Source of the DNA: Oceanihabitans sediminis
GTDB lineage: Bacteria > Bacteroidota > Bacteroidia > Flavobacteriales > Flavobacteriaceae
DNA length: 64,000 nt
Direction of reading: 5' to 3'
Assembly (NCBI RefSeq): GCF_003337215.1
Contig: NZ_QPIG01000002.1
Span: 1 to 64,000, forward strand
Shown: in pieces, positions 18,062-21,322 of the stretch
Layout of the letters: every line of letters starts with the position of its first letter
Position numbering within the stretch: the stretch's first letter is position 1
Notes under the pieces: generated by a model
The model's database searches: none
What the model was told of the DNA's origin: nothing
What the model saw: the letters and a program-made list of their open reading frames with translations, nothing else
Translations under genes and position numbers: made by a program

Positions 18062-18790
18062 ATGAAAATAATCTCCATGATTCCGGCACGATATAGTGCT
18101 TCTCGTTTTCCAGGTAAGCTGATGCAAGACCTAAATGGCAAAACAGTAATTCTTCGAACTTATGAAGCTACAAAAGCAACAAATCTTTTTGATGATGTTT
18201 TTGTTGTAACAGATAGTGAAATCATTTTTAATGAAATAACAAGCCATGGAGGAAAAGCAATAATGAGCATCAAAGAACACGAATGCGGAAGTGATAGAAT
18301 TGCCGAAGCTGTTGAAAACTTAGATGTAGATATTGTTGTAAACGTACAAGGAGATGAACCTTTTACCGAAGTTGCTTCACTTAAAAAACTGATTGAAGTT
18401 TTTAAAGACGATGCTGATAAACAAATAGATTTAGCTTCATTAATGGTTCATATTACAGAGGAAGAAGAAATAAAAAACCCCAATACGGTTAAGGTTATTG
18501 TAGATCAAAACAACTTTGCACTGTATTTTTCTAGAAGTCCAATTCCGTTTCCTAGAGCAACAGATGTTGGTGTGAAATACTTTAAACACAAAGGTGTTTA
18601 TGCGTTTAGAAAAGAAGCATTACTAGACTTTTACAGATTGCCAATGCTACCATTAGAAGCTTCAGAGAAAATAGAATGTATCCGTTATTTAGAATACGGA
18701 AAGCGAATTAAAATGGTAGAAACAAATGTGCAAGGAGTTGAAATTGATACTCCAGAAGATTTAGAAAAAGCTAAAAAACTCTGGAAATAA
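18062..18790 (+). CDS. kdsB: 3-deoxy-manno-octulosonate cytidylyltransferase
   Basis: The 242-residue nucleotidyltransferase starts [20 protein letters not shown], the CTP-binding signature. It continues with [22 protein letters not shown] (magnesium-binding Asp), [11 protein letters not shown] and the C-terminal [13 protein letters not shown], all typical of KdsB. It activates Kdo as CMP-Kdo for the lipopolysaccharide inner core. It heads a plus-strand group with a HAD phosphatase, a KdnB-like oxidase and an acyltransferase, which points to envelope sugar and lipid synthesis. Confidence 0.96.
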
Positions 18791-18816
18791 CCCCTTTTTA
18801 ACCGAAACTTAGACTA

Positions 18817-19533
18817 TTGAATAAAGAATACCAACATATTAAAGTCATTGGATTTGATGCAGATGATACGCTTTGGATTAACGAAACCTATTTTAGAGAA
18901 GCAGAAGAGAAATTTGCAAAAATTTTAGGAGCTTTTGAAACAACCAACAAGGTAGATCAAGAACTTTTTAAAGCACAAATAAGTAACTTACCATTATATG
19001 GCTACGGCATCAAGGGTTTTATTTTATCTATGGTCGAAATTGCTTTAGAACTATCCAATTATACACTTTCTAATAAAGCTATAGAGCAGATTCTGAATAT
19101 AGGAAAAGATATGCTTAATAAACCAGTAGAGTTATTAGATGGCGTAGAAGAAACTCTAGAAAAATTATCCAATAAATATAAATTAATAGTTGCCACAAAA
19201 GGCGATTTATTAGATCAAGAACGAAAGTTAGAAAAATCTGGTTTACTAGATTATTTTCATCATATTGAAGTGCTAAGTGATAAAAAAGAAGAGAATTATT
19301 CGAAACTTTTAAATCGTTTAGACATTAAACCTTCTGAATTTTTAATGATAGGAAATTCTATGAAATCCGATATCCTTCCTTTGGTTAATATTAAAGCAAA
19401 TGCCATTCATATTCCATTTCATACCACTTGGGCACACGAACAAGTAAGCGAAAGAGAAACGAATGGAAAAACCTATAGAACCTTAAAAAGTTTGAAGGAG
19501 CTTCCTGATTTACTAGAAAAAAATGGAGGTTGA
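18817..19533 (+). CDS. HAD-superfamily hydrolase
   Basis: The 238-residue protein has the HAD motifs FDADDTLW (nucleophile Asp near residue 14), LIVATKGD (motif II), a lysine in the DKKEENY region, and FLMIGNSMKSDILP (motif IV). The only possible start between the upstream in-frame stop (18799) and the first motif is TTG at 18817, so this gene uses a TTG start. It follows kdsB by 26 bp. The substrate is unknown. A link to Kdo-type sugars is inferred only from position. Confidence 0.85.
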   Translation: MNKEYQHIKVIGFDADDTLWINETYFREAEEKFAKILGAFETTNKVDQELFKAQISNLPLYGYGIKGFILSMVEIALELSNYTLSNKAIEQILNIGKDMLNKPVELLDGVEETLEKLSNKYKLIVATKGDLLDQERKLEKSGLLDYFHHIEVLSDKKEENYSKLLNRLDIKPSEFLMIGNSMKSDILPLVNIKANAIHIPFHTTWAHEQVSERETNGKTYRTLKSLKELPDLLEKNGG

Positions 19534-19674
19534 TATAGTTGAAATTTTCACGAACAGAACCTTAAAATGATAACTTCAAATACATAGAAAATCATATTTA
19601 GGTTTATTTTCAGAAATATTTCAGAAAAGATTAAATAAGTAATAACTTTACAAATAAAGACTAAAAAGAAGTCT

Positions 19675-20757
19675 ATGAGCTATAAAAATTATCCAATGGT
19701 ATCTAGAGTCGTTTTTGGACGAGGAAGTTTCAATCAACTGAATGAAATTTTATCACCCAAAAGGTTAAACACAAAAGCTCCGTTTATATTTTTAGTTGAT
19801 GATGTATTTAAAGGAAACGCTTGGTTAACATCTAGAATTCCTTTGTCTTATGAAGATAAACTATTATACATTTCTGCAGCAGAAGAACCTAAAACATCGC
19901 AAGTTGATGCACTTGTAGAAGAAATAATACTTACCCATAAAGAAAGACCTTCTGGAATTATTGGTATTGGAGGAGGGACCCTATTAGACTTAGCAAAAGC
20001 TGTATCTATCATGCTTACCAATAAAGGAGAGTCTAAAGATTATCAAGGTTGGGATTTGGTGAAAAATCCAGCAATTTATCACGTAGGTATTCCTACTATC
20101 TCAGGAACTGGTGCAGAGGTTTCAAGAACCACCATACTTACAGGACCACAAAGAAAACTTGGAATTAATAGCGATCACACGCCTTTTGATCAAGTTATTT
20201 TGGATCCAGAATTAACACAAGGTGTACCAAAAGACCAGTGGTTTTATACTGGTATGGATTGTTATGTACATTGTATTGAATCTTTAAACGGAACGTATTT
20301 AAATGCTTTTAGTCAAAGTTATGGTGAAAAAGCTTTAGCACTTTGTAAAGAAATTTTTCTTGAAGGAAGTTTAGACGTACAAGAATCTGCAGATAAATTA
20401 ATGATGGCTTCCTGGCACGGAGGAATGAGCATTGCTTATTCACAAGTTGGTGTTGCACATGCTATGAGTTACGGACTTAGTTATTTATTAGGAGTAAAAC
20501 ACGGAGTAGGTAATTGTATTGTTTTTGAACATTTAGAAGAATATTACCCTGAAGGTGTTGCCATGTATAAGGCAATGCGTGAAAAACATAATATTAGTAT
20601 ACCACAAAATATTTGTGCTAATTTAACAGACAAAGAATTTGATATTATGATAGATGTTTCTTTGAGTTTAGAACCGCTCTGGGAAAACGCTATCGGTAAA
20701 AATTGGAAGAATATCATTACAAGACAAAAGCTAAAAGAACTTTATCAAAAGATGTAA
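19675..20757 (+). CDS. kdnB: Iron-containing alcohol dehydrogenase, KdnB-like Kdo 8-oxidase
   Basis: The 360-residue protein is a group III iron-dependent dehydrogenase: IGIGGGTLLDLAKAVSIML for NAD(P) binding, ISGTGAEVSRTTIL, and metal ligands in GMDCYVHCIESLNG, GVAHAMSYGL and VKHGVGN. The opening VSRVVFGRGSFNQL and the FLVDDVFKGN segment resemble, from memory, KdnB of Shewanella oneidensis, which oxidises C8 of Kdo before the aminotransferase KdnA makes 8-amino-Kdo. Its place two genes after kdsB supports this. No kdnA lies in the window, so the pathway assignment is an inference, whereas the enzyme family is certain. Confidence 0.75.
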   Translation: MSYKNYPMVSRVVFGRGSFNQLNEILSPKRLNTKAPFIFLVDDVFKGNAWLTSRIPLSYEDKLLYISAAEEPKTSQVDALVEEIILTHKERPSGIIGIGGGTLLDLAKAVSIMLTNKGESKDYQGWDLVKNPAIYHVGIPTISGTGAEVSRTTILTGPQRKLGINSDHTPFDQVILDPELTQGVPKDQWFYTGMDCYVHCIESLNGTYLNAFSQSYGEKALALCKEIFLEGSLDVQESADKLMMASWHGGMSIAYSQVGVAHAMSYGLSYLLGVKHGVGNCIVFEHLEEYYPEGVAMYKAMREKHNISIPQNICANLTDKEFDIMIDVSLSLEPLWENAIGKNWKNIITRQKLKELYQKM

Positions 20758-20758
20758 T

Positions 20759-21322
20759 ATGATGCATTGGTTAGCAAAATTTATTTACTTTAAAATATTA
20801 GGATGGAAAATGGTAGGTAATACTACTTTTTCTAAAGATACCATTAAGAAAGCGGTATTTATTGCAGTGCCTCATACTAGTTGGCATGATTTCTATATAG
20901 GTGTTTTATTACGAAAAACAGTTAATATAAAAACTAACTTTGTAGGTAAAAAGGAGTTATTTAAATGGCCATTTGGTTGGTATTTTAGATCTGTTGGAGG
21001 AAGAGCCTTAGACAGAACTCCTGGGCAAAATAAAGTAGAAGCAATTGCTAAATTGTTTGATGAAAATGAAGAGTTTAGATTAACATTGGCTCCAGAAGGA
21101 ACAAGAAAAAAGGTTAGCGAATGGAAAACAGGTTTTTATTATATAGCTAAAAAAGCAAATGTTCCTATTATCATGTTTACCATGGACTTTGAAAATAAAC
21201 AAAATAAAATATCAGAACCTTTTTACCCTACTGATGATATGGAAGCAGATTTCGCTTTCATGCATAACTTTTACAAAGGAGTGAAAGGAAAAGTTCCAGA
21301 AAAATCTTTTGATGTTGAGTAG
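20759..21322 (+). CDS. Small lysophospholipid/glycerophosphate-type acyltransferase
   Basis: The 187-residue protein has PlsC-family motifs: VPHTSWHDFYIG (the HX4D catalytic pair), FVGKKELFKWPFGWYFR, and LAPEGTRKKVSEWKTGFYYIA (the PEGTR motif). The N-terminus is only moderately hydrophobic. It starts one base after the kdnB stop, and two ATG codons stand in tandem at 20759 and 20762. Members acylate lysophosphatidic acid or other lipids. Linkage to the kdsB-kdnB genes suggests envelope lipid work, but the acceptor cannot be read from sequence. Confidence 0.85.
   Translation: MMHWLAKFIYFKILGWKMVGNTTFSKDTIKKAVFIAVPHTSWHDFYIGVLLRKTVNIKTNFVGKKELFKWPFGWYFRSVGGRALDRTPGQNKVEAIAKLFDENEEFRLTLAPEGTRKKVSEWKTGFYYIAKKANVPIIMFTMDFENKQNKISEPFYPTDDMEADFAFMHNFYKGVKGKVPEKSFDVE

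Follow-up and report, generated by a model that had tools for sequence, protein, structure and literature searches.

We studied a group of genes around kdsB in Oceanihabitans sediminis (Flavobacteriaceae, Bacteroidota). The window, that is, the whole stretch of DNA that we analysed, comprises the first 64,000 nucleotides of contig NZ_QPIG01000002.1, part of a genome of 2.9 Mb in 20 contigs. KdsB makes the cytidine monophosphate (CMP) sugar of 3-deoxy-D-manno-octulosonate (Kdo), and close to its gene lies one that matches kdnB, the Kdo 8-oxidase gene of Shewanella. Together with a kdnA gene on the same contig, these genes very probably encode a Shewanella-type route to 8-amino-3,8-dideoxy-manno-octulosonate (Kdo8N, or 8-amino-Kdo), a sugar predicted to sit in the inner core, on lipid A. 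We identified the genes by sequence; the reactions are carried over from the Shewanella enzymes. The features are as follows.

18062-18790, + strand: kdsB, CMP-Kdo synthetase, 242 aa, by the KdsB family model
18817-19533, + strand: HAD-type hydrolase, 238 aa, TTG start, over the Pfam cut-off
19591-19641, + strand: probable remnant of a CAT-like acetyltransferase gene, by nucleotide match to locus L073
19675-20757, + strand: kdnB, Kdo 8-oxidase by sequence, 360 aa, full-length match to structure 5k8c
20759-21322, + strand: PlsC-like acyltransferase, 187 aa, over the Pfam cut-off
G000:C13:412262-413461 (outside the window), - strand: kdnA, best structure 5k8b, on the contig of kdnB at a distance of 392 kb
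C13:495275-495727 (outside the window): kdsC, over its curated cut-off

An earlier, sequence-only reading had listed kdsB, a HAD protein, a KdnB-like dehydrogenase and an acyltransferase in this order between 18062 and 21322, and the open reading frames (ORFs) and protein families agree with it. The single base it had noted between dehydrogenase and acyltransferase is also what the ORF coordinates give. In a profile search the iron-containing alcohol dehydrogenase (Fe-ADH), HAD and acyltransferase proteins exceed their own Pfam cut-offs, and for KdsB the score of 270.6 bits lies above the NCBIfam cut-off (193). The predicted KdsB structure (pLDDT 89.1) has the expected fold.

The dehydrogenase is, by its sequence, KdnB. 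Its best solved structure is 5k8c, '3-deoxy-alpha-D-manno-octulosonate 8-oxidase' (8.1e-137, 459 bits, full length). Second, at 2.9e-135 and again over the full length, comes 3rf7, a Shewanella protein whose deposited name is iron-containing alcohol dehydrogenase. The first structure outside the KdnB group is Alcohol dehydrogenase 2, at 2.1e-25 and 93 bits. The entries 5k8c (KdnB) and 5k8b (KdnA) are S. oneidensis proteins, in keeping with their titles. Four residues, D195, H199, H262 and H276, are invariant across 10 aligned KdnBs and presumably form the Asp/His/His/His metal ligand set of Fe-ADHs. The resemblance to KdnB that the sequence-only reading had pointed out also holds in a phylogeny: a quick tree with 27 proteins places the window protein together with 5k8c and 3rf7 in a 23-row clade (97, starred), and leaves E. 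coli FucO and YiaY, like two further Fe-ADH-like proteins encoded in the window genome, outside on long branches. Eighteen of the 23 rows come from organisms with KdnA (5k8c counted among them); the remaining five are 3rf7 (KdnA not checked), a protein from a viral contig, and those of genomes G175, G202 and G226.

One could also argue that the dehydrogenase is some other Fe-ADH whose role, in fermentation or detoxification, is unrelated. Its 15 NCBIfam matches include no KdnB model and are mostly other Fe-ADHs, all far under their cut-offs. Set against the drop from 459 to 93 bits outside the KdnB group, the clade shared with 5k8c and the fact that, as described below, KdnA and KdnB are strictly paired across 60 relatives, this explanation has a negligible chance of being right. 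Viral contigs yielded a single weak KdnB relative (38% identity), a plasmid search aimed at kdsB with kdnB from Shewanella or other Gammaproteobacteria gave no match, and there is no Shewanella-titled record among the best 80 of 556 confirmed kdnB loci.

The sequence-only reading considered the route incomplete. It is right that kdnA lies outside the window, but the same contig encodes KdnA at a distance of 392 kb. Searching the genome for DegT-family proteins yielded 12 matches; we inspected the ORFs of the six strongest, one of which starts like KdnA. The best structure for this protein is 5k8b, '8-amino-3,8-dideoxy-alpha-D-manno-octulosonate transaminase' (4.4e-143, 480 bits), and the runner-up reaches only 1.9e-55 and 192 bits. 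Its K186, presumably the lysine that binds pyridoxal phosphate (PLP), aligns with a lysine of 5k8b and is invariant in three sequences. With this orthologue the route is complete in the genome for KdnA, KdnB and KdsB. The genome has one KdsB (E<=1e-20), and its WaaA-like Kdo transferase scores 183.7 bits, under the NCBIfam cut-off of 438. In the kdnA region (L059 4462-9462, G000:C13), genes for a LolA-like protein and an LptF/LptG-type lipopolysaccharide export permease lie close by; a single ribB-like gene separates kdnA from the permease gene.

KdnA and KdnB occur together far beyond this genome. Of 60 relatives, 34 have KdnB (E<=1e-60), exactly these 34 have KdnA, and the other 26 have neither; below we call these genomes kdn-positive and kdn-negative. 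Across a phylum sample of 296 genomes, where at most six KdnA candidates were scored per genome, KdnB is present in 22 and KdnA in 82. Strong KdnA matches (E<1e-110) are confined to 19 genomes, all of them among the 22 with KdnB, and the 63 weaker matches (1e-79 or worse) are taken for paralogues. In the three other KdnB genomes (G175, G202 and G226) all KdnA candidates were scored, and none was better than 5e-71. Mapped onto the KdsB tree with G175 as absent, the presence of kdn requires 8 changes, of which starred branches force 5. Hence, the KdnA-KdnB pairing is not one inherited event.

The KdnB-like proteins of G202 (L213 5998-7110) and G226 (L214 5992-7104), at 42-43% and with no strong KdnA, are encoded beside apparent nonulosonate or surface-polysaccharide clusters, judged by eye from ORF beginnings. 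They are possibly oxidases for another ulosonic acid. In Leptospira interrogans a kdnB annotation stands beside neuA genes (table 3 in the available part of PMC8510873) and may belong to this other KdnB-like kind.

Gene order ties KdnB to KdsB. Of the best 80 among the 556 confirmed kdnB loci (the named loci), 79 have kdsB upstream of kdnB and in the same orientation; the contig of the only locus without a visible kdsB, L105, begins 1.5 kb before kdnB. Of the 80, 75 hold the acyltransferase gene, 66 a HAD gene, 20 a CAT-like gene and one kdnA. The distance between kdnA and kdnB is within 5 kb in 7 of the 34 kdn-positive relatives, and kdnA, kdsB and kdnB are consecutive in L054, L055, L062, L067 and L215. 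In 11 named loci a single ORF (609-632 aa) encodes both KdsB and KdnB, joined by a linker some 10-20 residues long. Records with this fusion include Aquimarina, Altibacter, Aequorivita and Gilvibacter titles, and we read through the fusion ORF in Aquimarina macrocephali; genomes G033 and G018 likewise carry fusions (which may overlap the named records). That a Kdo-oxidising enzyme is fused to the CMP-Kdo synthetase strongly indicates that both serve one pathway. The three-gene runs and the fusions tie KdnB to CMP-sugar activation.

If KdsB handles an amino sugar, it may have adapted to it, and the alignments hint at where. We compared two sets of KdsBs. Set 1 holds 33 of the 34 kdn-positive relatives and 26 rows from 25 kdn-negative genomes; it leaves out G005, in which kdsB is split, and G051, which has no KdsB match, and G010 contributes two rows. 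Set 2 holds 73 KdsBs out of 222 KdsB genomes in the phylum sample, a non-random choice drawn for the most part from the highest-listed ones, and leaves out the kdn-positive genomes G203 and G246. Residue 227 is the most telling column of set 1: it is Glu in 32 of 33 kdn-positive rows and in 1 of 26 kdn-negative rows, the others having Gly, Ser, Ala or Pro. In set 2, Glu is found in 13 of 15 kdn-positive and 1 of 57 kdn-negative rows, and G175 has Gly; taken alone, this set ranks residue 227 second after residue 142, which has no single kdn-positive letter. Pooled, the sets give Glu227 in 45/48 kdn-positive against 2/83 kdn-negative rows. If only KdsBs at least 50% identical to that of the window are counted, the numbers are 45/45 and 1/42. 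Glu227 is also present in 79/79 named loci with kdsB, where kdnA was looked for within the loci only.

Position 227 is G233 in E. coli, two residues ahead of Asp235, and in the window Glu227 lies two residues ahead of Asp229, which presumably binds the metal. Judging from the offset in the alignment table, the counterpart of Asp229 in A. aeolicus KdsB is D219, reported in the available part of PMC3149649 to hold Mg-A. Our guess is that Glu227 could pair with the 8-ammonium group of the amino sugar. A second motif, ECIR instead of EQLR (E. coli Q211), was considered as an amino-sugar marker and rejected, because kdn-negative G016, G022, G026 and G040 have ECIR and kdn-positive G012 has EQLR. 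In G005, a genome of the same genus as the window genome, as is G006, kdsB (G005:C27:514745-515469) is broken up by stop codons in the assembly, which may reflect a sequencing error.

Could Glu227 be a lineage marker rather than a residue that determines substrate specificity? A Fisher test of Glu227 against kdn gives 6e-29, ignoring kinship. On a quick tree built without column 227, Glu227 changes 5 times, which leaves 3 independent pairs on starred branches and 5 on all branches. In an average of 2.8 of the 3 starred pairs kdn shifts along with Glu227, and in none does it shift in the opposite direction, with a median sign test p of 0.25; the test falls short of significance because there are so few independent pairs. 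One kdn-negative genome with Glu227, G027, has the cluster kdsB-HAD-CAT-like-acyltransferase with kdnB gone, which looks like a recent kdnB loss. Against a mere lineage marker, the residue ranks first in set 1 and second in set 2, made of other genomes, and G175, which sits without KdnA in a starred, otherwise kdn-positive clade, has Gly. Given the few changes and the exceptions listed next, a lineage marker is a serious possibility, one to which we grant a little less than half of our belief.

Several observations weigh against the proposed route or against the role of Glu227 in it. First, G217 has Glu227 without kdnAB. Second, G042, G149 and G305 have divergent KdnAB, with KdnB in a separate subclade, and KdsBs of 36-37% identity without Glu227. 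These three and G217 all fall below 50% identity to the window KdsB. Third, G175 has a divergent KdnB and no KdnA. Fourth, the available parts of PMC3210612 and PMC6357163 ascribe Kdo8N to Shewanella only. Fifth, the cluster kdsB-HAD-kdnB-acyltransferase is present in five named species of Arenibacter (a result for the cluster only), yet the text on Arenibacter certesii in section 11 of PMC4052302 leaves Kdo8N unmentioned (text only).

Some of these genomes are worth describing in their own right. In G175 (L212 5998-7077) the divergent KdnB (51%) occupies the usual kdsB-HAD-kdnB-acyltransferase slot next to the KdsB with Gly at 227, and looks like a replacement of the native kdnB. L217 (G305) and L218 (G149) carry a second, divergent kdnA-kdnB type near KdsA-like, KdsC-like and KdsB genes, the first two of which we named by eye.

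The sequence-only reading named the HAD protein and the acyltransferase as possible further parts of the route. They could, for example, be dedicated steps, such as a phosphatase acting before KdnB or an enzyme that acylates the sugar or lipid A; both are frequent in the named loci, and in the window the acyltransferase gene follows kdnB after one base. We think such a role unlikely, for the following reasons. First, HAD (E<=1e-30) is enriched in kdn-positive relatives (28/34 versus 5/26 kdn-negative), yet it is missing from 6 of the 34, and the acyltransferase (E<=1e-15) is found in 32/34 and in 18/26. Second, HAD is part of the kdsB cluster of kdn-negative G027, G146 and G008, and the acyltransferase of that of kdn-negative G027, G010 and G026. 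Third, HAD is absent from all 11 fusion loci, and a canonical kdsC lies elsewhere in the genome. As both genes adjoin kdsB also without kdnAB, they are probably neighbours of kdsB and not steps of the 8-amination. HAD as the missing Kdo-8-phosphate phosphatase was likewise rejected as needless, because KdsC is over its curated cut-off. Between HAD and kdnB, positions 19591-19641 match L073 at 76% over 51 bases (E 5e-4; at the protein level only weakly, E 2.6). Relatives keep a CAT-like acetyltransferase gene there, and these bases are probably what is left of its 3' end.

In the route as we picture it, KdnB would oxidise C8 of Kdo to an aldehyde with nicotinamide adenine dinucleotide, and KdnA would aminate this aldehyde with PLP. 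The sole KdsB found would then make the CMP sugar of Kdo8N, perhaps preferring the amino sugar through Glu227, and the WaaA-like transferase would place Kdo8N onto lipid A. The outcome would be a zwitterionic, less negative inner core. Alternatively, KdnA and KdnB could make 8-amino-Kdo for a capsule or another glycan, with plain Kdo on lipid A. The placement on lipid A is a prediction from the gene content, and the KdnB-like proteins of G202 and G226 do lie in apparent surface-polysaccharide clusters. But with a single KdsB in the genome, a kdnB that adjoins kdsB and in relatives adjoins it or is fused to it, and a KdsB residue that tracks the presence of kdn, we regard this alternative as very improbable, and Kdo8N in the inner core, on lipid A, as the better account.

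The Kdo8N pathway itself is already known, so far mainly from Shewanella. As far as our literature searches go, which fell short of most subscription papers, the occurrence of the pathway, with strict kdnA/kdnB pairing, in Bacteroidota, the KdsB-KdnB fusion and the candidate KdsB specificity residue are new: we found no description of the fusion and no paper that names kdnB together with kdsB. In the parts available to us, PMC6357163 describes Kdo8N as a Shewanella hallmark, with Shewanella values of 1 Da less than Kdo for the residue and 44-45 ppm or close to it for C8, and PMC5125639 lists KdnB as the characterised member of the FeADH3/cd08184 type III alcohol dehydrogenases and names the sugar for Shewanella only. 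A term search finds Kdo unmentioned in the main text of the Cellulophaga pacifica lipid A paper (PMC11065906). The available part of PMC9478572 speaks of plain Kdo in Bizionia argentinensis, with no core structure, and that of PMC3342949 reports one Kdo in C. canimorsus.

The gene distribution suggests that 8-amino-Kdo chemistry is common in Flavobacteriaceae. Whether a large part of this family and scattered other Bacteroidota have swapped Kdo for zwitterionic 8-amino-Kdo, with KdsB retuned by Glu227 beside the catalytic metal Asp and some lineages channelling through a bifunctional KdsB-KdnB fusion, is a proposal that we find as easy to believe as to doubt. If many Flavobacteriaceae make Kdo8N, the view of this inner-core sugar as rare would change. 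The prediction also provides a charge-based hypothesis for the flavobacterial outer membrane, and residue 227 together with the fusion enzymes makes the question of sugar specificity testable by one point mutant.

On its 5' side the kdsB cluster is flanked by genes for a RecD2-like helicase and a DUF4126 protein. On the 3' side of the acyltransferase gene, the opposite strand encodes a carboxypeptidase-regulatory-domain protein; an opposite-strand gene 3' of the cluster is presumably YebC.

The 8-amino-Kdo route of KdnA, KdnB and KdsB was reportedly worked out in S. oneidensis (by Gattis in 2013 and Zachman-Brockmeyer in 2016). The window genome is like it in that KdnB and KdnA have 5k8c and 5k8b as their best matches, nearly over their full length. 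The nearness of kdsB to kdnB may be a further likeness, and the distant kdnA (392 kb), the HAD gene between kdsB and kdnB and the acyltransferase gene after kdnB may be differences. The window genome differs from S. oneidensis in belonging to another phylum, in which some of its relatives fuse KdsB to KdnB. Its KdsB shares the fold of E. coli KdsB (3k8d), KpsU (1gq9/1gqc) and A. aeolicus KdsB (2y6p), with Foldseek TM scores of 0.86-0.93 for the predicted model, and the metal Asp is conserved in the alignment. Where the window protein has Glu227, however, E. coli KdsB, KpsU and H. influenzae KdsB all have Gly.

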